Source of the DNA: Chitinophaga pinensis
GTDB taxonomy: Bacteria > Bacteroidota > Bacteroidia > NS11-12g > UBA9320
Length of the DNA: 47,384 bases
Direction: 5' to 3'
NCBI GenBank assembly: GCA_945897885.1
Contig: CAMDGU010000002.1
Location: forward strand, 82,307 to 129,690
Shown: positions 1 through 20,294 of the stretch, piece by piece
Position numbering within the stretch: the stretch's first letter is position 1
How the letters are laid out: each line of letters opens with the position of its first letter
Program-made: the position numbers and the translations under genes
Notes under the pieces: model-generated
What the model was told of the DNA's origin: nothing
What the model saw: only the letters and a program-made list of their open reading frames with translations
Database searches by the model: none

Positions 1-942
1 TTTAACCAACAAATTTCTCAAGCTTCAGGATATACCAACCAAATTATAAATGCCACAAAAACTCAGAAAAGAGGTATGGAAATTACCTTAACCGGAAATG
101 CAATTAAGACAAAGAAAGGTTTAAGCTGGGATGTTTTGGTAAACTGGTCAAAATACACCGAAACATTTAAGGAACTCCCTAAAGGACTAACAACAATAAA
201 TAGCTTTTATGAAGTTGGAAGCAGAACAGATGAGGTTTGGATTCGTAAGTTTGCAAGAACAGAAGACGGCAAATTAATAAATGATGCCGGTGGTAGACCA
301 ATAGTGATGCCGATTGCACAATTTGCCGGTCACTCCAATCCTGATTGGGTATGGTCTGTATACAACAAAGTTAGTTACAAAAGTTTCACTTTAGGTTTTC
401 AATTTGATGGACGTGTAGGTGGTGTTATGGAAAATTATATCAGAAAGCAAACGTTCCGTGGTGGAAGACACATTGAAACAACCGAGGGAGATTTAGGTGC
501 TGCAAGAGAGCAAGATGGCGCTGGAGTGAAAGCATACCTTGGCGAAGGAGTGCAAGTTTCCAATGGTGTAGCTATTAAATTTGATCCTGTTACAGGTAAA
601 ATTATTAATTATAATGAATTACAATTTACAGATAACTCAACCAAAACTTTTGCTCAAGATTATGTTAGTAGAGTGCATAGTATTCCGGAGGTAAATATGA
701 TGAGTAAAACTTATACCAAATTAAGAGAAGTAGTTATTACCTACAGAATTCCGGAGTCAATTGCTAAAAGAGCATTTATTCAAGGTGCAACGGTATCATT
801 GGTTGCGCGCAACTTGCTTTATTTTATAAAAGATAAAAAATTCAAAGATGTGGATATTGACCAATACGCCACACAGTCTATTACCAACTTGCAAACTCCT
901 ACAATGAGAAGCTACGGTATAAATTTAAATTTAACTTTTTAA
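1..942 (+). CDS. SusC/RagA-family TonB-linked outer membrane protein, 3' part
   Basis: The reading frame is open from the first base of the window, so this is the C-terminal 313 residues of a longer gene; SusC proteins are usually about 1,000 residues. It lacks signal peptide, carboxypeptidase-like domain and plug because they lie outside the window. What remains is beta-barrel: alternating aromatic strands, the phrase VSYKSFTLGFQFDGRVGG, and a terminal strand SYGINLNLTF ending in Phe, as outer membrane barrels do. The SusD lipoprotein gene follows after 19 bases, the standard SusCD order. SusC forms the TonB-driven channel and SusD the lid over it. The substrate cannot be read from this part. 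The downstream genes suggest a phosphonate-containing ligand, but a terminator lies between, so that link is inference. Confidence 0.9.
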   Translation, partial: FNQQISQASGYTNQIINATKTQKRGMEITLTGNAIKTKKGLSWDVLVNWSKYTETFKELPKGLTTINSFYEVGSRTDEVWIRKFARTEDGKLINDAGGRPIVMPIAQFAGHSNPDWVWSVYNKVSYKSFTLGFQFDGRVGGVMENYIRKQTFRGGRHIETTEGDLGAAREQDGAGVKAYLGEGVQVSNGVAIKFDPVTGKIINYNELQFTDNSTKTFAQDYVSRVHSIPEVNMMSKTYTKLREVVITYRIPESIAKRAFIQGATVSLVARNLLYFIKDKKFKDVDIDQYATQSITNLQTPTMRSYGINLNLTF

Positions 943-961
943 CCAATAAATAAACACTAAG

Positions 962-2524
962 ATGAAAAAGAAACTATTTTTAATATTAACGGCCTTAATG
1001 GTTATATCCATTTCGGGTTGTAAAAAAGAATTTGATGATTTAGAAAAAGATCAAAACAGACCTACTAATGTTCCACCTTATTTAGTTTTAAATGGAATAC
1101 TTTCAGATATAACTTATAAAAGCTTTAACCCTACACAAAGATGGAATCAATTTTATTGCTGTAATTATAATTATTATGGTAACCAAGAATATAACTGGAA
1201 CTCAGGCTCAACATACTCTACTTATTCATCTTTAACCAATGTATTAAAAATGGAACAAGAAGCCGAAAGAAGCGGATTAGCATCACCAAATGCATATACT
1301 GCACTGGGTAAGTTTTTCAGAGCCTATTTATATTACAACATAACCATGCAATTAGGAGATGTGCCTATGACCGAAGCCTTAAAAGGTATCGACAATTTGA
1401 AACCTAAGTATGATAGTCAAAAGGAAGTTTTTAAACAAATTTTAAAGTGGCTTGAAGAATCGAATGATGAAATAAATACTATTACAAGCAAAGGTGCATA
1501 TTCATTATCCAGTGATTATTTTTATAATAATGATTTGAAGAAATGGAGAATGGCTGTAAACAGTTTTAAACTTCGTGTTTTAATGCAATTAAGCAAACAT
1601 GAAAATGATGCAGATCTTAACGTAAAGCAAAAGTTTGCAGATGTAATTTCAAACCCAGGCAAATACCCGATATTCACTACAATGTCTGATAATATGGTTT
1701 GGGTACCCAATAGTTCATTTGACAAATATCCTACTAACCCGGATAACTTTGGTTTTGATGCTACACGTTATAACATGGCATCAACTTACTTGAACACTTT
1801 GGCCGGACTAAAAGACCCAAGAACATTTTTTGTGGCAGAACCTGCTGACTCTTTTTTAAGAGCAGGAAAACTACCTACGGATCACGCTGCATTTAACGGT
1901 GCAGGCAGTGGAGAAGACCTTGCTATTATGTCATCCAATGCATTAAAAGGTATTTACTCTTACATGAATCGCAAACGTTATTACAGCACTTATACCGCTG
2001 AAAATATCATTCAAATCGGGTATCCTGAATTATGCTTTAATATAGCTGAAGCCATCAATCGTGGATGGCTTGCAGGCAATGCAGAAGAGTATTATACTAA
2101 AGGAGTTCAGTCAAGTATAAGTTTTTATGGTATAGTAGCGGGTGCAAACACTGTAACATTTCAGAAAAAAGGCGGAACCTTGAGTGAATCGGAGTATTTT
2201 TCTATAAATTATGATTGGAATGCTTATTACAATCAAAGTTCAGTAAAATACGCAGGTAATTCTCAGGCAGGTTTAAATCAAATCCTTACTCAAAAGTATC
2301 TTGCTTTTTACCAAAATAGCGGTGCAGAGGCTTACTACAACTGGCGCAGAACTAATGTACCTGCATTCCATACCGGACCCGGAACTGCTAATAGCCAAAG
2401 AATTCCTCTTAGATTTTCTTATCCCTCAGCAGAAAACAACGTAAATACGGCTAATTTGAAAGCTGCTATATCATCACAATTTGGAAGTGATGATATCAAC
2501 GAAAAAATGTGGATCATTAAATAA
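962..2524 (+). CDS. SusD/RagB-family nutrient-binding outer membrane lipoprotein
   Basis: A 520-residue protein with a type II signal peptide; the lipobox ISGC puts the lipidated cysteine at residue 20. The body is helical, rich in Tyr, Asn and Trp, with the look of the SusD-like 2 subfamily (early segment NVPPYLVLNGIL, later FNIAEAINRGWLAGNAEEYY, and near the end EAYYNWRRTNVPAF). SusD proteins sit on the cell surface, bind the ligand and cap the SusC barrel. The gene lies directly behind the SusC gene and is followed by a strong hairpin, so susC-susD probably form one transcript unit with limited read-through. Length is normal for the family. Function as SusD is near certain; the ligand is unknown. 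Confidence 0.93.
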   Translation: MKKKLFLILTALMVISISGCKKEFDDLEKDQNRPTNVPPYLVLNGILSDITYKSFNPTQRWNQFYCCNYNYYGNQEYNWNSGSTYSTYSSLTNVLKMEQEAERSGLASPNAYTALGKFFRAYLYYNITMQLGDVPMTEALKGIDNLKPKYDSQKEVFKQILKWLEESNDEINTITSKGAYSLSSDYFYNNDLKKWRMAVNSFKLRVLMQLSKHENDADLNVKQKFADVISNPGKYPIFTTMSDNMVWVPNSSFDKYPTNPDNFGFDATRYNMASTYLNTLAGLKDPRTFFVAEPADSFLRAGKLPTDHAAFNGAGSGEDLAIMSSNALKGIYSYMNRKRYYSTYTAENIIQIGYPELCFNIAEAINRGWLAGNAEEYYTKGVQSSISFYGIVAGANTVTFQKKGGTLSESEYFSINYDWNAYYNQSSVKYAGNSQAGLNQILTQKYLAFYQNSGAEAYYNWRRTNVPAFHTGPGTANSQRIPLRFSYPSAENNVNTANLKAAISSQFGSDDINEKMWIIK

Positions 2525-2596: not shown

Positions 2597-5305
2597 ATGA
2601 AAAAAATATTCCTCATTTCTCTTCTTATATTTGGTGCCTATTCCAGCTCTAGGGCTCAAAATAAAGCAACCATTTTACAGGTACCTGGTGTAGACAGTTT
2701 TTGTAGGATAAATGAAAAAGGTATTTCAATTCTTGCCAGTGGCAGATTCCTAACTCCGGCAGGAAGTTTTATTCGAATAACGCATGATCCTTTTGGGATG
2801 GCTGTTTCTTCTGATGGAAAAAAATCAGTGACTCTACATAATGGGGTATTTACAGTTATTGATATTGCAAGTCTAAAACAGGTAAGAGTTCCGTCCTATG
2901 ACGGAAAGATAAAATCGCCTCTTCAACGCGGGTCTTTTCTTGGAATCGCCATTCAGCCCGATTCAAAAACAGTTTATTTAAGTGGAGGAGATCAAGGTTC
3001 AGTTATTATATATGACATAGAGAAATTTGAAAAAATTGATACTTTTTCCTTAGACGGTGAATTTGAAGGAATTAAATATGAGGATAGTTTTACTTCAGAC
3101 TTACTGCTGAATGATTCAAAAAATGAATTATTAATTCTTGACCGAGCAAATTTCAGATTGGTTAGATATGATCTCAAACTAAAAAAAATTACCGCTTCTA
3201 TTCCTGTGGGTAGACTTCCTTTTGGTTTGGCTTTGAGTCCAGATAAAACTACTGCTTTTGTTGCAAATGTGGGCATGTACTCGTATCCCCTAATTGAAGG
3301 AGCCAATCAAAAAAATTATGATTCACTCTTAATCTCTCGTCATCCTTACGGAAACAATACAATGGAATCTATCAATGGAACCAATATAGAAGGGAAAAAA
3401 ATACCGGGTGTTGGAAGCCCAAATGCGCCGGAAGCCATGAGTGTTTACGCTATTGATCTTGTTACCAACAAAGTAATTGACAAATTTAAAACAGGTTATC
3501 AAATTGGGGAAATGATTGAAGATGCCGAAGTAGTTGGCGGTTCCAGTCCCAATTCCATTGCAGTTGGAAAAAAATATGCCTATGTTACCAATGCTACTAA
3601 CGACAATATAACTGTGATCGATTATAAAAATCATCGCATTGTATCTCATATTCCGATACGAGTAGATCAACGAATTGATAAATTAAGAGGATTGCTGCCT
3701 TTTGGCATTTCAATAAGCCAAGATGAAAAAACTTTGTATGTTGCACTTTTGGGATTTAATGCGGTGGCAGTAATCGATATTAAAAGTAAAACAACTAAAG
3801 GTTTAATCCCCAGCGGATGGGGTGCATCAAGAATCGCTTTATCAAAAACTGAAAATGAACTTTACATTATTTCTTGCAGAGGCTTGGGTGCAGGCCCCAA
3901 TGGCGGAAAAAATTTTATAAAACCGCCACAAGGCACTTATATTGGAGATATTCAATTAGGAAGTTTCCAAAAAGTTCCAATGCCATCCAATGAGGAATTA
4001 AAAAAATACACTTCTCAAACATTAAACAATACTTTTAAAAGTGTTACCCTGCTTGATGATGGTAAAAATCCATTACCTCCCCTTCCTCAATTGAGAAAAA
4101 GTCCTATAAAACATATAGTATATATTACTAAAGAAAACAGAACTTACGACGAAGTTTTTGGTCAATTGAAAGCAGGAAATGGAGATAGCAGTCTTGCTCG
4201 TTTTGGGGTCAATTGCGAATATGTTTTGCCGGATTCTTTAAAAAGTAAATATCCAGGACTTAAAATAACACCCAATCACCACAAAGCCGCCAAAAGCTTT
4301 GCTTACAGTGACAATTTTTACTGTGAGAGTGATGCATCCATTCATGGACATCACTGGATGCTTGGGGTAATTCCGAATGAGTGGGTAGAAACCAATTCAA
4401 GTGTTGACAAAACAGCAAAATTATTTTCATCTGCTCCCGGCCGGCGGTTTCCCGGCTCAACCGGCAGCATGGATCCTGAGGATTATGCTGAAATTGGGGG
4501 ATTATGGGAAGCGTTGGAAAGAAATAATATTTCATTTTACAATTTTGGTGAAGCCAATGAAACTGCTCATGTTAGGGAAGAAGCCATGGATACTGCTACA
4601 GGAGCAGCTCATGGTGTTATGGTGCCAATGCAAAAGGCACTTTACAATAAAACCAGTCACAATTACGCGGGATATAATACCAACATTCCGGATCAATTTC
4701 GTATGAACCAGTTTGAAAATGAGTTTACCGAAAAATGGTTGACAGGAAAAGATTCCATGCCTTCTTTAATTGTAATGCAAATACCTAATGATCACACAGC
4801 GGGCCCAAGACCTGAAGATGGATATTATTTTCCACATTCCTTTGTAGCCGATAATGATTTGGCCGTTGGACGCATTCTTCATTTTTTATCCAGAACTAAA
4901 TACTGGAAAAATACATTAGTAATTATAACTGAAGATGACCCTCAGGGTGGCGTCGATCATATAGATGCACACCGAAGTTTATTAATCATGGCAGGACCTT
5001 ATGTAAAAAGAGGTTACACAAGCCATACACATGCCAGTTTTGGGTCAATTCTTAAAACCATTTATAATATTTTGAACGTGCCCTATGTCAACCAATATGA
5101 TGCTACTGCTTCACTTTTACAAGACTTTTTTATAGAAACTCCTGATTTTAATCCCTTTACTCTTGAGCCAAATGACACTCGGGTTTTTGATGACCAAAAA
5201 GCCATGAAAAAATACAATCGTGAATTAGATTGGCATAAAATTATGCAAGGACCTCCTATGGATAAGGAAGATATTATGAGACAAAATCATTACAAGGGAT
5301 ATTAA
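2597..5305 (+). CDS. YVTN beta-propeller / phosphoesterase (PLC-phosphatase family) fusion protein 1
   Basis: A 902-residue exported protein. The signal peptide ends near residue 21 (SSSRAQ). Residues about 25-440 are a YVTN-type beta-propeller with repeats such as DPFGMAVSSDGKKSV, LPFGLALSPDKTTAFVANVG and KYAYVTNATNDNITVIDY. From about residue 500 a phosphoesterase domain related to phospholipase C and acid phosphatase AcpA begins: KENRTYDEVFGQL (about 512-524), ITPNHH, SIHGHHWMLG (about 580), NDHTAGPRPEDG and EDDPQGGVDHIDAHRS (about 779-794), the conserved metal and active-site blocks of that family. It probably hydrolyses a phosphate or phosphonate ester in the periplasm or at the surface. 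Six bases separate it from the next gene. A paralogue (11084-13510) closes the cluster. Substrate is not readable; release of a phosphonate head group is inference from context. Confidence 0.88.
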   Translation: MKKIFLISLLIFGAYSSSRAQNKATILQVPGVDSFCRINEKGISILASGRFLTPAGSFIRITHDPFGMAVSSDGKKSVTLHNGVFTVIDIASLKQVRVPSYDGKIKSPLQRGSFLGIAIQPDSKTVYLSGGDQGSVIIYDIEKFEKIDTFSLDGEFEGIKYEDSFTSDLLLNDSKNELLILDRANFRLVRYDLKLKKITASIPVGRLPFGLALSPDKTTAFVANVGMYSYPLIEGANQKNYDSLLISRHPYGNNTMESINGTNIEGKKIPGVGSPNAPEAMSVYAIDLVTNKVIDKFKTGYQIGEMIEDAEVVGGSSPNSIAVGKKYAYVTNATNDNITVIDYKNHRIVSHIPIRVDQRIDKLRGLLPFGISISQDEKTLYVALLGFNAVAVIDIKSKTTKGLIPSGWGASRIALSKTENELYIISCRGLGAGPNGGKNFIKPPQGTYIGDIQLGSFQKVPMPSNEELKKYTSQTLNNTFKSVTLLDDGKNPLPPLPQLRKSPIKHIVYITKENRTYDEVFGQLKAGNGDSSLARFGVNCEYVLPDSLKSKYPGLKITPNHHKAAKSFAYSDNFYCESDASIHGHHWMLGVIPNEWVETNSSVDKTAKLFSSAPGRRFPGSTGSMDPEDYAEIGGLWEALERNNISFYNFGEANETAHVREEAMDTATGAAHGVMVPMQKALYNKTSHNYAGYNTNIPDQFRMNQFENEFTEKWLTGKDSMPSLIVMQIPNDHTAGPRPEDGYYFPHSFVADNDLAVGRILHFLSRTKYWKNTLVIITEDDPQGGVDHIDAHRSLLIMAGPYVKRGYTSHTHASFGSILKTIYNILNVPYVNQYDATASLLQDFFIETPDFNPFTLEPNDTRVFDDQKAMKKYNRELDWHKIMQGPPMDKEDIMRQNHYKGY

Positions 5306-5311
5306 ATCAAT

Positions 5312-7360
5312 ATGCTAAGATTAAAATTATTCCTTTTTGTGTTTTATTACTTGATTGTTTGTGAGGACTTAGCCTTCTCACAAACATTAAAAATAGATTC
5401 TACAAAAAATCTATCCGAAGTAATTGTTACAGCCAGTAGAAATAAAACCCAGTCATTATATGTTCCTTATTCTTTTGTAAGCATTCATAAAAAAGATTTA
5501 GAAATATTTCAATACCGAACCACACCCGAAGCCCTTTCAGGAAGTAGTGGAATTTTTATTCAAAAGACAAACCACGGAGGCGGCTCTCCATTTATTAGAG
5601 GCTTAACCGGTAATCAAATCCTTTTGTTAAGTGATGGAATTAGATTGAATAATTCCATTTTTCGCTATGGACCAAATCAATATTTTAACACCATAGATGT
5701 TTACTCCATTTCTCATATTGAAGCGATAAAAGGAACCGGGTCTGTTCAATTTGGTTCAGATGCTTTAGGTGGGGTAATTCAAGTATTTACCAAAGAACCA
5801 AACTTCTCACCTAAGAAAAAATTACTGACCGAGGTTCAATTAAAGGCAGTTACACAAAAAATGGAATGGACCAGCCACGCAGATATGCAGTATCAAACAA
5901 AAAAAACAGCTTTTTTAATATGTGCCACCATTCGAGAGTTTGGAGATCTTTATGGTGGTGATACTACTGGAAAACAATCTCCATCAGGTTATAAAGAAAA
6001 TGCAATAAATGGGAAATTTAAATACAAAATAAACGATCATTTGGTTTTAACCTTTGCTTACCAATATCTTGAACAAAGAGATGTTCCTTTATACCATAAG
6101 GTTCATCTTGAAAATTTTAATTATTACTATTTTGAACCACAAAAGAGACAACTTGGTTATGCAAGACTAGAAAAAACGGGCAAAATAAAACTATTAACCA
6201 AAACCACTTTTACGATTTCATCCCAAAAAAGTAATGAAACCAGGGGCTATTATAAAAATAATAATGTCAATCAATTTATTGAAAAGGATCAAATTTCAAC
6301 CAATGGACTAACCATTGATATCTTATCCCAGCTAAAAAAGAACTGGTTAGCTAATTCAGGAATTGAATACTACCATGATAAAGTGAGAAGTTCAAGAGAA
6401 CAGATTACCATGGCATCCAATTCTCATAAACAGCTAAGAGGATTATATCCTGATTTAGCAACCAATGCCAATTTTTCAGTTTACACTTTGCATCATTTTC
6501 AGTTTAACCCATTAAGAATTGAGGCCGGTTTGAGGTATAATAAATTTAATCTTTTGATTCCCGATACAGGCAAAATGGGTTCTAACCCAACGGAAATAAG
6601 AATTTATCCTTCATCTATGGTCGCTAATTTGGCTGCTCTCATTCAAATATCATCAACACAAAGTCTGTTTGCCTCCTTTAGTACAGGATATCGTTTACCC
6701 AATATTGACGATATGGGAACCCTTGGATTGGTAGATTTTAGATATGAATTACCCACTTATGACATCAAACCTGAAAAATCGTATAATACGGAGATTGGAT
6801 ATCGTTTAATGACTCAAAAGGCATTAGCATCCATTTCATTTTACTATATGCATCTTTCCGATCTTATCACCCGGGCACAAATGGTTGGAGCAAAAATTGA
6901 AGGATACAATGTTTATAAAAAACAAAATAATCAGGAATCCTATTTAAAAGGTTTAGATTTTTCATTTTCTAAGCTCTTATTTAAAAAATTTAAATTGTTG
7001 GGAAATATTTCATATTGCTTTGGACAAAACCTGACAAAGAATGAACCATTAAGAAGAATTCCACCTTTGAATGGAAGATTTTTGGCAACTTATGAATACA
7101 AAAAATTTCAATTACAATCAGAATTGCTTTTTGCCTTTGATCAGAAAAGACTAGCGCAAGGAGATAAGGAGGATAATCGAATCCCGGCCGGAGGAACTCC
7201 AGGTTGGCAAATTTATAATTTATCGGGAAGTTTTAAGTTTCAAAAGATGCATGTTTTTACTGGCATTCAAAATATTTTAAATCAAGATTACAGAACTCAT
7301 GGAAGCGGCATTAATGGAATGGGGCGCAGTTTATACCTAACCTTACAATTCTTTTTTTAA
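5312..7360 (+). CDS. TonB-dependent outer membrane receptor
   Basis: 682 residues. The signal peptide ends at about residue 24 (LAFSQ), followed by a TonB-box-like stretch SEVIVTASRNKTQS. The plug domain shows GGGSPFIRGLTGNQILLLSD and IEAIKGTGSVQFGSDALGG. The rest is a 22-strand-type barrel ending in RSLYLTLQFFF, a typical aromatic C-terminus. There is no carboxypeptidase-like N-terminal domain, so this is a classic receptor of vitamin B12, siderophore or metal type rather than a SusC. It follows the phosphoesterase by 6 bases and precedes the HD oxygenase by 2 bases, so it is part of the same operon. It probably imports the phosphonate product or a related small molecule; import of an iron chelate for the iron-dependent HD oxygenase is an alternative. 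Confidence 0.9.
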   Translation: MLRLKLFLFVFYYLIVCEDLAFSQTLKIDSTKNLSEVIVTASRNKTQSLYVPYSFVSIHKKDLEIFQYRTTPEALSGSSGIFIQKTNHGGGSPFIRGLTGNQILLLSDGIRLNNSIFRYGPNQYFNTIDVYSISHIEAIKGTGSVQFGSDALGGVIQVFTKEPNFSPKKKLLTEVQLKAVTQKMEWTSHADMQYQTKKTAFLICATIREFGDLYGGDTTGKQSPSGYKENAINGKFKYKINDHLVLTFAYQYLEQRDVPLYHKVHLENFNYYYFEPQKRQLGYARLEKTGKIKLLTKTTFTISSQKSNETRGYYKNNNVNQFIEKDQISTNGLTIDILSQLKKNWLANSGIEYYHDKVRSSREQITMASNSHKQLRGLYPDLATNANFSVYTLHHFQFNPLRIEAGLRYNKFNLLIPDTGKMGSNPTEIRIYPSSMVANLAALIQISSTQSLFASFSTGYRLPNIDDMGTLGLVDFRYELPTYDIKPEKSYNTEIGYRLMTQKALASISFYYMHLSDLITRAQMVGAKIEGYNVYKKQNNQESYLKGLDFSFSKLLFKKFKLLGNISYCFGQNLTKNEPLRRIPPLNGRFLATYEYKKFQLQSELLFAFDQKRLAQGDKEDNRIPAGGTPGWQIYNLSGSFKFQKMHVFTGIQNILNQDYRTHGSGINGMGRSLYLTLQFFF

Positions 7361-7362
7361 AC

Positions 7363-7947
7363 ATGACCATAGAAAACAAAGTTGAAGAGATTATCTCCTT
7401 ATACTTAAAGTACGGCGATTCTGATTATATAGGTGAGCCAGTTTCCCAAATCGAACATATGTATCAATGTGCTGAACTTGCCATGGAAGCCAACGCAAAT
7501 GAAGAGCTTATTTTGGCAGCTTTTTTTCATGACATTGGCCATTTATATGAATTTGCCTTTCCTGACGAAAGACTAATAAGCATGGACGGTTTTGGGATAT
7601 TCGATCACGAACGTATTGGAGCCAATTATTTGGCAAGTATGGGCTTTTCAGATACTATTTCGAAACTGGTTGCCAGTCATGTGCAGGCAAAAAGATATCT
7701 CGCATACAAGTTTCCCTCCTATTTAAAAGAATTGTCTGAGGCAAGTTTAAAAACTCTTGTATTTCAAGGGGGTAAAATGTCAGAGGAAGAAGCCTCTGAA
7801 TTTGAAAATGACAAGTTGTTTGAACAATACATTACACTTCGGATTTGGGATGAAAAGGCAAAACTAACTAATAAAGCGACAGGTGATCTTAAAATTTTAA
7901 AAGAGCTCATGATAAACCATCTTAAGAAAATCAATCAAGCTAAATAA
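7363..7947 (+). CDS. HD-domain mixed-valent di-iron oxygenase of PhnZ/TmpB type (phosphonate catabolism)
   Basis: 194 residues, close to PhnZ (about 190). The HD metal ligands are visible: H32, H57-D58, H83, H107 and D164, with H61 and K111 as likely substrate contacts. Upstream lies Y22-I-G-E25, with the spacing of the Tyr24/Glu27 pair that PhnZ uses to close its active site. The late motif LRIWDEKAK is also typical of the oxygenase branch that includes inositol oxygenase. PhnZ oxidatively cleaves (R)-1-hydroxy-2-aminoethylphosphonate to glycine and phosphate; TmpB does the same for the trimethylated compound. The usual partner, a 2-oxoglutarate-dependent hydroxylase (PhnY*/TmpA), is not in the window. 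Family assignment is good; exact substrate is open. It is not a cyclic nucleotide or nucleotide HD hydrolase, judging by the Tyr/Glu pair and neighbours. Confidence 0.85.
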   Translation: MTIENKVEEIISLYLKYGDSDYIGEPVSQIEHMYQCAELAMEANANEELILAAFFHDIGHLYEFAFPDERLISMDGFGIFDHERIGANYLASMGFSDTISKLVASHVQAKRYLAYKFPSYLKELSEASLKTLVFQGGKMSEEEASEFENDKLFEQYITLRIWDEKAKLTNKATGDLKILKELMINHLKKINQAK

Positions 7948-7949
7948 TC

Positions 7950-8651
7950 ATGAATATAGAACTAATCGTATTTGACATTGCAGGTACCACCTTAATGGAT
8001 AATGGAGAAATCGCTGAATCCTTTCAAAAAGCATTACATGAATTTGGATATACTGTTCCGGTTGTCAAGATAAACCCACTGATGGGTTATAAAAAACCGG
8101 AGGCAATTCTTAAAATATTGGAGGAATTTGAACATGATATAGAATTAATTGATGAAAATTATGTCAACAAAATTCATCAACGATTTCAAAGTATCATGGT
8201 TGAATATTATAGAAACACCAAGGAACTTAAAGCACTGCCATACGCTGAAGAAATATTTGAATATCTTCATTCTAAAGGTATAAAAATTGGTCTGGACACC
8301 GGGTTTTCAAAAGAAATTACCGATGTAATAATAGATAGACTTGAGTGGTTAAAAAATGGAAAAATTGACTCATATGTTTGCAGTGACGAGGTTATCATGG
8401 GCCGTCCTCATCCTTATATGATTAATAAGATTATGAACGATCTTGGAGTCATTGATCCTAATAAGGTAATTAAAGTGGGAGACACGGAAGTGGATGTGAA
8501 CGAAGGTTTTAATGCAGGATGTAAATACAGTATTGGTATAACAACCGGAGCTTTTAGTGAAGAAGAGTTAAAAAAACACTTGCCTTCTTTTATAATACAT
8601 CATTTATCCGAACTGGTTCCCATTATACATGATTCACTTACAAACGAATGA
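7950..8651 (+). CDS. Phosphonatase-like HAD-superfamily hydrolase (PhnX-related)
   Basis: 233 residues. The first HAD motif reads FDIAGTT: nucleophile D9, but Ala at position 11 where ordinary HAD phosphatases carry the acid Asp. Phosphonoacetaldehyde hydrolase (PhnX) has the same DxAGT. The cap segment MGYKKPEAI places K49 where PhnX has its Schiff-base lysine (MGLLK). Later motifs also match PhnX: MGRPHPYM (about 149-156), and VGDTEVDVNEGFNAGC with the metal-binding Asp pair. It is shorter than PhnX (about 265), as in the phosphonatase-like subfamily found in phosphonate operons. The probable reaction is C-P cleavage of phosphonoacetaldehyde or a close relative. It starts 2 bases after the HD gene and its end overlaps the MFS start by 4 bases, implying translational coupling. 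Confidence 0.85.
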   Translation: MNIELIVFDIAGTTLMDNGEIAESFQKALHEFGYTVPVVKINPLMGYKKPEAILKILEEFEHDIELIDENYVNKIHQRFQSIMVEYYRNTKELKALPYAEEIFEYLHSKGIKIGLDTGFSKEITDVIIDRLEWLKNGKIDSYVCSDEVIMGRPHPYMINKIMNDLGVIDPNKVIKVGDTEVDVNEGFNAGCKYSIGITTGAFSEEELKKHLPSFIIHHLSELVPIIHDSLTNE

Positions 8652-9955
8652 GTGGCACCTTTGTACCTTTACCAGTAAACAAAAAGATTTTCCTTAGGTT
8701 AAGCCAATCTACCCTTTTGTTTATCATTTATTCTTCGGTAACGGTATTCGTTATTTATACCTGCATGTATGGCTTCAGAAAACCTTACACGGTAGGTTTA
8801 TATGAAGGTATAACCTATTTGGGGGTATCGTATAAGGTTTGTTTAGTTATTGCTCAGGTTTTAGGTTACATGATCAGTAAATTTATTGGTATAAAATTTA
8901 TTTCATCCATTATACCTAAAAAAAGAGCCAATTATCTTATGATTTGCATAGCTGTTGCATGGACCTCTCTTTTTCTTTTTGCAATCATTCCTCCTCCTTT
9001 CAATATTCTATGCATGTTTATCAATGGTTTACCTTTAGGAATGGTTTTTGGATTGGTTTTTGGTTTTATTGAAGGGCGACGAACAACTGAAATAATGGGC
9101 GCCATGTTGGCGGTGAGTTTCATTTTTGCATCTGGTCTCGCCAAAACGATTGGCAAATGGTTACTTCTTGAATTAAACACCTCCGAATGGTGGATGCCAT
9201 TTGTGGCAGGAGCCATATTTGTGATTCCTTTTCTTGTGTTTGTTTGGCTTATACAACAGTTACCTCCACCAACGTCTGATGACATTGAAGCCAGAAATAT
9301 CAGACTTCCTATGACAAATCTCGAAAGAAAATTATTTCTTAAAAAATTCTGGATCCCCATGACATTCGTGGTTATAGCCTATGCTATTTTTACTATTGTC
9401 AGAGATTTCTGTGAAGATTTCGGCAATGAATTATGGACCGAAACCGGCTATAAGAACACTATTGGAATTTTTGCCAATACAAGTACCATTATTTCATTTG
9501 TTGTACTTCTATTTATTGCTGCTTTTTTTCTAATAAAAAATAACAAACTTGCATTTAGATTAAGCCATTATTTGGTGATACTTGGATTGACCCTCGTTAT
9601 TTTGGCAACGATTTTATATAATTTAAATAGCATATCCACAATTACATGGATGCTAATGGCAACTTCTGGCTTATATCTCGCTTATCTGCCATTTAACTGT
9701 CTTTATTTCGAAAGGATGCTTTCAACCTATAAAATGACTGCTAATATAGGATTCGTGATGTATATCGCCGATGCCTTTGGTTATTTGGGAACCGTAATTG
9801 TTTTATTAATCAAAGAGTTTGTAACAATTAAATATTCTTGGGTTGATTTTTTCAGTATTTTGTTTTATACAGCCGGTTTTATAGGTATCCTATTGATGGT
9901 GATTACTACAATTATTCACTCTAATTTCATAAAAAAACTAAATGTCATACAATAA
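8648..9955 (+). CDS. MFS transporter, DUF5690-like, probable phosphonate permease
   Basis: 435 residues with about 12 hydrophobic segments, giving the 6+6 major facilitator layout with a basic cytoplasmic loop in the middle (NLERKLFLKKFW, about residues 225-236). The N-terminal phrase YTCMYGFRKPYTVG resembles the first helix of organophosphate/phosphate antiporters such as GlpT and UhpT. I recognise it as a Bacteroidota MFS family often labelled DUF5690. ATGA overlap with the HAD gene upstream and a 14-base overlap with the FAD gene downstream tie it to the same mRNA. The likely role is uptake of the phosphonate, or of the ester-hydrolysis product, from periplasm to cytoplasm. Substrate is inferred from neighbours only. 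Confidence 0.82.
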   Translation: MSGTFVPLPVNKKIFLRLSQSTLLFIIYSSVTVFVIYTCMYGFRKPYTVGLYEGITYLGVSYKVCLVIAQVLGYMISKFIGIKFISSIIPKKRANYLMICIAVAWTSLFLFAIIPPPFNILCMFINGLPLGMVFGLVFGFIEGRRTTEIMGAMLAVSFIFASGLAKTIGKWLLLELNTSEWWMPFVAGAIFVIPFLVFVWLIQQLPPPTSDDIEARNIRLPMTNLERKLFLKKFWIPMTFVVIAYAIFTIVRDFCEDFGNELWTETGYKNTIGIFANTSTIISFVVLLFIAAFFLIKNNKLAFRLSHYLVILGLTLVILATILYNLNSISTITWMLMATSGLYLAYLPFNCLYFERMLSTYKMTANIGFVMYIADAFGYLGTVIVLLIKEFVTIKYSWVDFFSILFYTAGFIGILLMVITTIIHSNFIKKLNVIQ

Positions 9956-11083: not shown

Positions 11084-13510
11084 ATGAAAAAGCCTTTACC
11101 ATTCACCATCCTATTGCTATTTTATACTTTTAGTATAAATGCACAAAAATTAATCGACCTTGAGAAAAACAGAATAGAACTTCCACATTCTTGGAGCCTT
11201 ACTCCCATTGGAATAAGCCTTAATCTTGGCGACTTGCCTCTTAATATGGCAGTTTCATCTTCTAAAAAATACATAGCGGTTACCAATAATGGTCAGTCAA
11301 AACAATGTATTCAAATCATTGATGTAAATAAAAAAAAGATCGTCTTTGAAAAATCAATCGGTAGGGCTTGGGTAGGACTTAAATTTAGTCATAATGATAA
11401 ATACCTGTTTGCAAGTGGCGGAAATGATAATTGTATATTACGTTATCGTTTTCAAAAGGATAGTATTGCCTTAATGGATTCATTTATTTTAGGTACGAAA
11501 TGGCCAAATCGAATCTCACCGGCAGGACTGGAAATCGATGAAAAAAAAGATATTTTATATGTGGTAACAAAAGATAATAATTCATTGTATTGCTTGGATG
11601 TAAAAACCAAAAAGATTATTCGTCAAATCGCCTTACCAGGTGAGGCATACTCTTGTAAATTATCCAATGATGGTAAAGAACTTTATATCTCTTGCTGGGG
11701 TTGCGCAAAATTATTGATTTACAATATCGAAAGTGCATTAATCACTCATGAAATATCTGTAGGAAGTAACCCTAATGATATCGCATTGGGCAAAAACAAT
11801 CATTTTCTCTATGTTGCCAATGCGAATGACAACTCGGTTTCTGTCATTGATCTTGTAAATTACAAGGTTCTTGAAACTTTAAATTGTGCCTTGTTCCCAA
11901 ATTCTTTGATGGGATCTACCACCAATAGTGTATGTTTAAGTGAAGATGAAAAATTGTTGTTCATTGCTAATGCGGATAACAATTGCTTGTCAGTGTTTGA
12001 TGTAAGTATACCAGGGCAAAGCAAATCAAAAGGATTTATACCCACCGGATGGTATCCAACTTCAGTAAAAGTGGTAGGAAAGAACCTATTTGTTGCCAAT
12101 GGTAAAGGCTTTACCTCCATGGCAAATCCCAATGGCCCCAGCCCTTCTAATAAAAAAATAAAATTAAGTTACCAAAAAGGCGATCCTGAAAAACAGAAAG
12201 AAATCCAATACATAGGTGGTTTATTTAAAGGAACAATGAGTATATTCGAAATACCTAATGAAACTTTATTAAACCAATACTCACAACTGGTCTATAAAAA
12301 CACACCCTATTCAAAGGAAATTGAAAATTTGGCTGAAGGCCAAGAAGGCAATCCCATTCCAAGAAAAATAGGAGATTCAAGCCCGATAAAGTATGTTTTT
12401 TATATCGTAAAAGAAAATAGAACCTACGATCAGGTTCTAAGTGATATTAATGGCGGAAATGGAGACACCAGCCTTTTACTTTTTGGTGAAAATATCACCC
12501 CTAATCAACATGCCCTAGCCAAAGAATTTGTGCTGCTAGATAATTTTTATGTAAATGGAGAAGTGAGTGCCGATGGACATAATTGGACAATGGGCGCCTA
12601 TGCCAATGATTATTTGGAAAAGACCTGGGTTACGAGTTATGGTGGACGAGGTGGTGATTACGATGGTGAGGGAAACAGAGAAATTGCCAACAATAAAAAT
12701 GGTTTTTTATGGGATCATGCCAAAAGAGCCGGTGTAACCTATCGCACCTATGGTGAATTTGCCGACAATTACAAAGCCAATATCCCGGTATTGAAAGAAC
12801 ATTTTTGCCCATATTATACTAGTTGGGATGAAACGGTTAGAGATACCACAAGGGTTGGTCAATGGAAACGTGATTTTGATTCCTTATTGACCATTGGCCG
12901 ATTGCCACAATTAAATACTTTAAGACTTATCAATGATCACACTGAAGGACTTCGATTAGGAAGACCAACTCCTTTTGCTCATGTAGCTGATAATGATCTT
13001 TCGGTCGGTATGTTTATTGAGTATTTGAGTAAAAGTAAAGTTTGGGAGCAAAGCGCAGTATTTATATTAGAAGATGATGCCCAAGATGGTCCTGATCATG
13101 TGGATGCTCATCGAAGTACTGCCTATATTGCCGGTGGATATGTGAAAAGACATTTTATTGACCATACCATGTATTCTACTTCTTCTATGTTGCGAACCAT
13201 CGAATTAATCCTTGGCATTCCTCCAATGACTCAGTATGATGCAGCTGCTAAGCCCATGTGGAGATGTTTTGATACCATGCCCAATCATGCTCCATTTAAT
13301 GCTTTGCCTTTAAAAACGGACATCAATCAGGTGAATGTTAAAACAGGATATTGGCAGCAGAAAAGTGAAGGATTCGATTTTTCAAAAGAAGATCAAATAA
13401 ATGACAGAGAATTTAGTGAAGTGATATGGAAAGCTGTAAAAGGCGAAAAATCCGAGCTTCCTTCTCCTAAGAGAGCATCATTTGTTAAAAATTTAGACTT
13501 CGATCTTTAA
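11084..13510 (+). CDS. YVTN beta-propeller / phosphoesterase fusion protein 2
   Basis: 808 residues, a shorter paralogue of the protein at 2597-5305. The signal peptide ends near residue 20 (SINAQ). A beta-propeller with YVTN-like repeats (VGSNPNDIALGKNNHFLYVA, LLFIANADNNCLSVFDV) covers about 25-340. The phosphoesterase domain starts near residue 437: KENRTYDQVLSDI (about 443-455), NITPNQHALAKEF, VSADGHNWTMGAY, LINDHTEG and EDDAQDGPDHVDAHRS (about 663-678). All recognisable catalytic blocks are kept. Compared with the first copy it has GHN in place of GHH and lacks a segment before ITPN, so the two probably act on different esters. It is the last gene of the operon (11 bases after the FAD gene) and runs convergently into the DUF58 gene with only 3 bases between. 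Confidence 0.87.
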   Translation: MKKPLPFTILLLFYTFSINAQKLIDLEKNRIELPHSWSLTPIGISLNLGDLPLNMAVSSSKKYIAVTNNGQSKQCIQIIDVNKKKIVFEKSIGRAWVGLKFSHNDKYLFASGGNDNCILRYRFQKDSIALMDSFILGTKWPNRISPAGLEIDEKKDILYVVTKDNNSLYCLDVKTKKIIRQIALPGEAYSCKLSNDGKELYISCWGCAKLLIYNIESALITHEISVGSNPNDIALGKNNHFLYVANANDNSVSVIDLVNYKVLETLNCALFPNSLMGSTTNSVCLSEDEKLLFIANADNNCLSVFDVSIPGQSKSKGFIPTGWYPTSVKVVGKNLFVANGKGFTSMANPNGPSPSNKKIKLSYQKGDPEKQKEIQYIGGLFKGTMSIFEIPNETLLNQYSQLVYKNTPYSKEIENLAEGQEGNPIPRKIGDSSPIKYVFYIVKENRTYDQVLSDINGGNGDTSLLLFGENITPNQHALAKEFVLLDNFYVNGEVSADGHNWTMGAYANDYLEKTWVTSYGGRGGDYDGEGNREIANNKNGFLWDHAKRAGVTYRTYGEFADNYKANIPVLKEHFCPYYTSWDETVRDTTRVGQWKRDFDSLLTIGRLPQLNTLRLINDHTEGLRLGRPTPFAHVADNDLSVGMFIEYLSKSKVWEQSAVFILEDDAQDGPDHVDAHRSTAYIAGGYVKRHFIDHTMYSTSSMLRTIELILGIPPMTQYDAAAKPMWRCFDTMPNHAPFNALPLKTDINQVNVKTGYWQQKSEGFDFSKEDQINDREFSEVIWKAVKGEKSELPSPKRASFVKNLDFDL

Positions 13511-19198: not shown

Positions 19199-20294
19199 AT
19201 GACTAACGAACAATTTTTGGAATTAAAGGGCAGATCTAAGGCCCTGGGGAGGTATCTTTGACATTGAACAGAAGGTAATACTCATACAAGACGAAGAACA
19301 ACAAACCCAAGCTCCCAATTTTTGGGATGACTCAAAAAAAGCTGAAATTTTCCTAAAAAACATTCGCTCCAAAAAAATTTGGGTAGATGCCTATAATGAA
19401 ATTGAAAAAGGAATTGCCGATTTGGAAGTTCTTGTTGAATTTCATGAAATGGACGAAGTAACCGAGGAGGAACTGGATATTCAGTATAATCAAGTTTTAT
19501 TATTAATAGATGACCTAGAGTTTAAGAACATGATGAGTGGCGAGGAAGACCAGTTGGATGCAATTATTCAGGTTAACGCAGGTGCTGGTGGAACAGAAAG
19601 TTGTGATTGGGCCAGCATGATTGTGCGTATGTACATTATGTGGGCAGAAAAAAATGGATATACCGTTTCCATTGTAGACGAACAAAGCGGAGATGTTGCA
19701 GGGATTAAAAGTTGCTCAATTGAAATAAAAGGACAGTTTGCTTACGGCTATCTTAAAGGTGAAAATGGCGTTCATCGCTTGGTTCGTATTTCTCCTTTTG
19801 ATAGCAATGCAAAGCGTCACACATCTTTTGCTTCAGTTTATTGCTACCCTGTAGTGGATGATACCATTGAAATAGAAGTAAAACCTGCAGAAATCGAATG
19901 GCAAACCTACCGAAGTAGTGGAGCCGGTGGACAAAATGTAAATAAAGTTGAAACTGCTGTTAGACTTAGGCATTTACCCTCAGGTATTATTATAGAATGC
20001 CAGCAAGACCGTTCGCAATTGGGAAATAAAGAAAAAGCGATGAAAATGCTTAAATCTCAATTGTATGAACTGGAAATACGAAAACGAAACGAAGAACGTG
20101 ATAAAGTAGAAGCCGGTAAAATGAAAATAGAATGGGGTTCACAAATCCGTAATTATGTTTTGCACCCATACAAATTGGTAAAGGATGTAAGAACAGCATG
20201 TGAATCAAGTGATGCCTCCGGTGTATTGGATGGAAACTTAAATCCATTTTTAAAAGCATTTTTGTTGGCTTACGGAAAAAGTGCTTCGGCTTAA
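19199..20294 (+). CDS. prfB: Peptide chain release factor 2, made by programmed +1 frameshift
   Basis: The gene starts at ATG 19199, reads 20 codons to CTT at 19256-19258, meets TGA at 19259-19261, and continues in the +1 frame from GAC at 19260 to the stop ending at 20294. The product is 364 residues, the normal RF2 length. SPF (198-200), which reads the second and third bases of UGA/UAA, and GGQ (243-245, in [12 protein letters not shown]), which triggers peptide release, are both present. The in-frame UGA makes RF2 synthesis depend on RF2 scarcity. Gene prediction without the shift would start at an internal codon and lose the N-terminal 74 or so residues. The upstream gene ends 2 bases before the ATG. 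Confidence 0.96.
19246..19262 (+). promoter_or_regulatory. prfB programmed +1 frameshift site
   Basis: The sequence GGGGAGGTATCTTTGAC contains a Shine-Dalgarno-like GGGGAGG (19246-19252), a 3-base spacer TAT, the slippery CTT, and the in-frame stop TGA followed by C. It matches the classic RF2 autoregulatory signal (Shine-Dalgarno element, CUU UGA C). Confidence 0.95.

Follow-up and report, generated by a model that had tools for sequence, protein, structure and literature searches.

A predicted PhnZ-type oxygenase encoded without a hydroxylase partner in a Bacteroidota operon

Oxygenases of the PhnZ type act on alpha-hydroxylated phosphonates that are made by a partner 2-oxoglutarate dioxygenase. 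A reading made from the sequence alone (the sequence-only reading) of a 47,384-nucleotide stretch of DNA assigned to Chitinophaga pinensis (GCA_945897885.1, contig CAMDGU010000002.1, positions 82,307 to 129,690; the whole stretch is called the window here) had pointed to an HD-domain protein resembling PhnZ, with no such dioxygenase encoded nearby. What, then, would supply its substrate? The sequence-only reading had allowed for direct uptake of the hydroxylated compound, for production by a neighboring FAD enzyme and for a distant gene. Our analysis makes it likely that the protein is a PhnZ-type oxygenase that uses externally supplied (R)-1-hydroxy-2-aminoethylphosphonate (R-HAEP), or a compound closely related to it, does without a hydroxylase and occupies the slot of the lyase PbfA.

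The operon around the HD gene

The HD gene (7363..7947) is an intact open reading frame of 194 amino acids within a tight run of co-directional genes, all on the + strand. At the upstream end of this run is the 3' part of a gene for a SusC-like TonB-linked outer-membrane transporter (76..942), which starts upstream of the window and whose 5' part is readable in a separate stretch (L181, from 11992). Next come a SusD-like surface lipoprotein (962..2524), whose Hymenobacter orthologue is annotated SusD/RagB, and a protein that combines a beta-propeller with a PF04185 phosphoesterase domain (PEa, 2597..5305; 8.1e-11). PEa is kept in many related loci and carries an apparent signal peptide, as judged by eye. 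A TonB-dependent receptor (5312..7360; PF00593 2.3e-31, PF07715 3.4e-19) directly precedes the HD gene. Downstream are genes for a PhnX-like HAD hydrolase (7950..8651; TIGR03351 8.4e-55, TIGR01422 2.5e-36), a DUF5690 membrane protein (8648..9955; PF18943 3.9e-145), an FAD amine oxidase of family TIGR03364 (9942..11072) and a second beta-propeller and PF04185 phosphoesterase (PEb, 11084..13510; 1.1e-9), which is also kept in related loci. Gaps of 2 bases lie on either side of the HD gene, and the HAD/DUF5690 and DUF5690/FAD gene pairs overlap. Scans for promoters and terminators found nothing above chance level. Elsewhere in the window, prfB (release factor 2, 19200-20294) carries near 19253 the sequence TATCTTTGAC, apparently the programmed frameshift site typical of this gene, because of which it shows up as a short frame and an ORF with a TTG start.

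The predicted functions of the downstream enzymes bear on the origin of the HD protein's substrate. The HAD protein was aligned to PhnX: the D9-x-A-G-T motif, the Schiff-base lysine K49 and R152, an arginine in place of the usual lysine, are present in 39/39 rows, PhnX among them, while its scores fall under the TIGR03351 and TIGR01422 cut-offs. The FAD enzyme clears the TIGR03364 cut-off (404.2 versus 285.1 bits) and is PbfD-type by profile rather than by direct alignment to a characterised PbfD. PbfD1 is annotated as TIGR03364, and PbfD enzymes, some of them so annotated, convert 2-aminoethylphosphonate (AEP) and N-methyl-AEP into phosphonoacetaldehyde (PMC10590968). An FAD oxidase of this kind and a HAD protein with the phosphonatase signature would together form one complete branch that needs no PhnW.

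The DUF5690 protein is probably an inner-membrane permease, and its context suggests aminophosphonates as the transported compounds. Nine such cluster proteins from Bacteroidota were tested, and all nine were confirmed as DUF5690; on a Hymenobacter plasmid an MFS_1 protein stands in its place. A comparison of DUF5690 with an MFS_1 protein gave no match. The alignment to GlpT (hhalign) is full-length and co-linear, with the Arg-Lys of TM1 in register, and is not significant (E 0.039, probability 1.3%), so that it can be taken only as a hint. Two conserved arginines, Arg44 and Arg252, are reminiscent of the arginine pair in antiporters of the GlpT type. The predicted structure had a pLDDT of 39.6 and was not used. 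We found no paper on DUF5690 in the literature searched.

Family, fold and residues of the HD protein

The HD protein aligns nearly end to end with PhnZ (phmmer, E 8.5e-44) and with TmpB (E 3.3e-29). In these alignments Y22 (codon 7426-7428) and E25 (7435-7437), which form a YxxE loop (7426..7437, + strand) ahead of H32, match Y24/E27 of PhnZ and Y30/E33 of TmpB, in agreement with the spacing proposed in the sequence-only reading. The published role of such a loop is that the tyrosine binds Fe2 before the substrate does and the glutamate contacts the amine of the substrate (PMC8177086). The YxxE motif occurs in 48 of 49 aligned proteins; the exception, from Aquicella, lacks that stretch. The six di-iron ligands recognized previously (H32, H56, D57, H82, H106 and D163) fit the H...HD...H...H...D set, align with those of PhnZ and are invariant in the 49-protein alignment, as are K110, S128, Q135 and R160. 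The Aquicella HD protein (L160:4998-5573) groups with PhnZ; an MFS ORF overlaps its start, and it may be truncated or frameshifted.

Against the profile TIGR03276, the HD protein scores 194.8 bits (E 8.7e-58), which is far beyond chance and yet short of the curated equivalog cut-off of 214.6 bits. A TmpB that is encoded with its TmpA likewise falls under this cut-off, at 201.7 bits. Because a genuine TmpB fails too, the cut-off cannot serve as the border of the oxygenases. Nonetheless, the sub-cut-off score and an identity to PhnZ of about 41% count against our proposal.

The fold was compared using an AlphaFold model (pLDDT 75.4 overall, below 50 for residues 20-23). The modeled structure resembles PhnZ (Z 20.6) and TmpB (Z 19.3), and its next-best match is an unrelated HD protein (Z 9.7). 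In a tree built without outgroups, whose bootstrap was not fully settled, the HD protein falls in a clade with PhnZ (support 96/93), and TmpB with three TmpAB-encoded proteins forms a separate neighboring clade. Position 29 follows the same division: the HD protein and PhnZ have Gln, and Met is confined to TmpB and the proteins of the three TmpAB loci.

These observations allow two other views of the protein to be weighed. Since an HD domain is present (PF01966, 40 bits), the protein might be an ordinary HD phosphohydrolase. We regard this as extremely improbable: all best matches are oxygenases, the YxxE loop is conserved, the modeled fold gives Z of 19-21 to PhnZ and TmpB versus at most 9.7 to non-oxygenase HD proteins, and the phosphohydrolases YfbR and YedJ lay far outside in an earlier tree whose hydrolase outgroups were unalignable. 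It is very unlikely, if somewhat less so, that the protein is an oxygenase for trimethyl-AEP (TmpB-type) or hydroxymethylphosphonate (GmPhnZ-type) instead of R-HAEP. It does match the corresponding profiles weakly (NF049941, 131.9 bits; NF052439, 107.4 bits), but both scores are far under the cut-off of 300, and a genuine TmpB reaches 351. In addition, residue 29 is not Met, the clade is apart from that of TmpB, and neither TmpA nor PhnY is present. The conclusion that the HD protein is an oxygenase, and PhnZ-like rather than TmpB-like, is thus well supported by fold, tree and residues, from which we infer its activity. The preference for an oxygenase over a hydrolase in the sequence-only reading is borne out to the same extent.

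The missing hydroxylase and the source of the substrate

The source genome comprises 3.03 Mb in 126 contigs and is 98.5% complete. We searched it for the two 2-oxoglutarate oxygenase families to which PhnY* and TmpA belong, and found no protein with PF05721 (PhyH) and none with PF02668 (TauD). The absence of a partner dioxygenase that had been noted for the window thus extends, for these two families, to the whole genome, which has neither the PhnY*-PhnZ nor the TmpA-TmpB two-enzyme pathway. PhnW, PbfA and the C-P lyase protein PhnJ were not found there either; the HD protein and the PhnX-like HAD protein are the only predicted C-P-cleaving enzymes found. Because the HD protein is oxygenase-like and the genome lacks PhyH and TauD proteins, we infer that it is an oxygenase that has no PhnY* or TmpA partner.

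Genuine partners are readily recognized in other organisms. The TauD gene beside TmpB in Aliiroseovarius encodes TmpA (E 3e-148 to 6NPB; NF049936, 582 bits), and in Dietzia the product of a PhyH gene adjoining an HD gene reaches 260.8 bits against the PhnY model. Of the 36 genomes that carry an HD gene, 18 also encode PhyH proteins. From such genomes we scanned nine PhyH candidates and one TauD candidate, none of which was PhnY*-like; the best reached 52.7 bits on the PhnY model, versus 260.8 for the genuine partner. PhnJ is absent from all 36 HD-bearing genomes.

We propose that the HD protein is a mixed-valent di-iron oxygenase that would convert R-HAEP, or its N-methyl form, into phosphate and glycine (or sarcosine). 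R-HAEP would arrive ready-made from outside, and because of this external supply no hydroxylase would be needed. Surface phosphoesterases may split lipid or glycan esters and so release their aminophosphonate headgroups, with import via SusCD/TonB and the DUF5690 protein. The FAD oxidase and the PhnX-like hydrolase would in parallel process AEP and N-methyl-AEP by way of phosphonoacetaldehyde, and the 1-hydroxy analogue, which this branch presumably cannot process, would go to the HD enzyme, in the slot that PbfA fills elsewhere. Our account of the substrate, the chemistry, the release from esters and the role of the DUF5690 protein is built on computed properties, namely family, fold, residues, operon, partner absence and co-occurrence. 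In the literature, PhnW-PhnX is described as handling R-HAEP poorly (PMC8154272), and PhnZ as specific for (R)-alpha-hydroxyphosphonates and otherwise tolerant (PMC10574752). Occurrences on record are those of R-HAEP in polysaccharides of Acanthamoeba and of HAEP in lipids of Bdellovibrio (PMC8154272), which would fit esters as the source.

Of the three sources envisaged in the sequence-only reading, direct uptake is the best supported, and the other two appear unlikely. The FAD enzyme is a doubtful supplier of the HD protein's substrate because its known product, phosphonoacetaldehyde, has no alpha-hydroxyl and is the expected substrate of the HAD protein. The two enzymes might still act in series, such that the FAD oxidase would remove the amino group of a hydroxy-aminophosphonate taken up from outside, and the HD or HAD protein would then cleave the resulting 1-hydroxy-2-oxo intermediate. 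The strong co-occurrence of the HD and FAD genes (see below) speaks for this idea, and HAEP was named as a proposed substrate in the description of TIGR03364 itself (quoted in PMC10590968). However, the assayed PbfD enzymes turn AEP and N-methyl-AEP into phosphonoacetaldehyde, the HD protein retains the YxxE glutamate that binds a substrate amino group (PMC8177086), which the intermediate would lack, and FAD enzymes occur without the HD protein in 17 of 33 genomes. We consider action in series to be unlikely. A similarly low probability attaches to the idea that a hydroxylase outside PhyH and TauD, encoded elsewhere in the genome, makes the alpha-hydroxyphosphonate. The search covered two 2-oxoglutarate oxygenase families in a 126-contig assembly with 98.5% completeness, which leaves some room for such an enzyme. 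However, the known partners belong to PhyH (PhnY*) or TauD (TmpA), of which the source genome has none, and genuine partners score 261 bits (Dietzia) or 582 bits (TmpA), whereas candidates elsewhere do not exceed 53 bits on the PhnY model.

Recurrence in Bacteroidota and comparison with known systems

The orphan HD gene is a recurrent arrangement across Bacteroidota. In a survey of 33 other Bacteroidota loci, representing two separate HD lineages and counted by hand, the neighborhood of the HD gene contained SusC/SusD in 32, the TIGR03364 FAD enzyme in 30, a DUF5690-type protein in 27 and the HAD protein in 24, where several absences reflect contig ends. The 33 HD loci yielded no class III aminotransferase. 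In a phylum sample of 395 genomes, 17 have the HD gene, 33 have the FAD gene and 16 have both (Fisher p 1.5e-18, uncorrected for kinship). In G233, the one HD genome that lacks the FAD gene, the HD gene and PhnW are about 3 kb apart. Because the FAD gene co-occurs, or PhnW in G233, the HD protein accompanies a phosphonoacetaldehyde-making enzyme of either kind.

PbfA shows the opposite tendency. It is present in 3 of 36 HD genomes, and never on the HD contig, whereas among the 17 FAD-only genomes 9 have it; at five FAD-only loci a PbfA scoring above its cut-off is encoded. The contrast has p 0.0007 across all 53 genomes and 0.07 in the even phylum sample, and kinship inflates the tests. We speak of segregation rather than exclusion, given the value of 0.07, and exclusion is in any case not strict, since three genomes (G206, G233 and G297) hold both genes, on different contigs. 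In a survey from 2021 (Table 1 of PMC8154272), phnZ was found in 15 phnWX and 24 phnWAY clusters and never with pbfA.

PhnZ-like HD genes are also found in other settings. In Nostoc (L155:6001-6561) and on a Variovorax plasmid (L158:5989-6537) they lie within C-P lyase operons and have no PhnY* or TmpA neighbor in the stretch shown, which is another orphan setting. On a Novosphingobium plasmid (L179:2632-5546), an orphan PhnZ-like HD gene lies between genes for a phosphocholine-specific phospholipase C and a TonB receptor, an arrangement suggesting that the link to lipid esters arose elsewhere too. No HD relatives were found in viral contigs; one phage record contains a partial HD match.

We tentatively suggest a broader view, which is possible but less probable than the proposal for the HD protein itself: feeding on esterified aminophosphonates (phosphonolipids or phosphonoglycans) may be widespread in Bacteroidota. 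It would involve surface esterases with SusCD, a DUF5690 permease and two parallel O2-dependent branches, in one of which AEP and N-methyl-AEP would pass through PbfD and the PhnX-like hydrolase, while in the other an orphan PhnZ would act on 1-hydroxy-AEP. If our reading of the HD protein and its operon is right, hydroxylated aminophosphonates would be a free nutrient that is common enough to keep an orphan PhnZ in many Bacteroidota, counts of phnZ genes in metagenome surveys would part from counts of the AEP-oxidising pathway, and the unnamed membrane family DUF5690 would gain a first testable function.

The nearest characterised enzyme in the tree is PhnZ of the uncultured bacterium HF130_AEPn_1 (PDB 4MLM, 4MLN, 4N6W, 4N71). 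It shares with the HD protein the fold, the six ligands, YxxE, Lys110, Ser128, Gln135, Arg160 and Gln29, whereas it is only about 41% identical and is encoded with PhnY*. TmpB of Leisingera caerulea (PDB 6NPA) has the same fold, ligands and YxxE, but is about 35% identical, has Met at position 29 and a TauD-family partner, TmpA, and belongs to the separate clade.

At the level of gene clusters, an orphan PhnZ is already known in principle. The phnWX and phnWAY clusters that contain phnZ (PMC8154272) likewise combine a PhnZ homologue with the hydrolytic route for AEP and lack pbfA. The present operon, from Bacteroidota, differs in that it has no PhnW, so that the TIGR03364 oxidase would make the aldehyde, and in that it also encodes SusCD, two phosphoesterases and DUF5690. 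The uptake side, SusCD with phosphoesterases, resembles the phosphate utilisation systems of Flavobacterium (PusCD loci), a number of which include enzymes for phosphonate degradation (PMC8115612). PusCD loci are marked by SusCD beside phosphoesterases and phosphonate enzymes and by induction at low phosphate; in gene content, the present operon has SusCD beside phosphoesterases and predicted phosphonate enzymes. As far as the readable literature shows, the PhnW-free combination of oxidase and oxygenase in Bacteroidota, its recurrence and the link to DUF5690 are new. The locus would thus represent a new operon variant, in which an oxidase and an oxygenase occur with no transaminase and are joined to uptake by SusCD and phosphoesterases.
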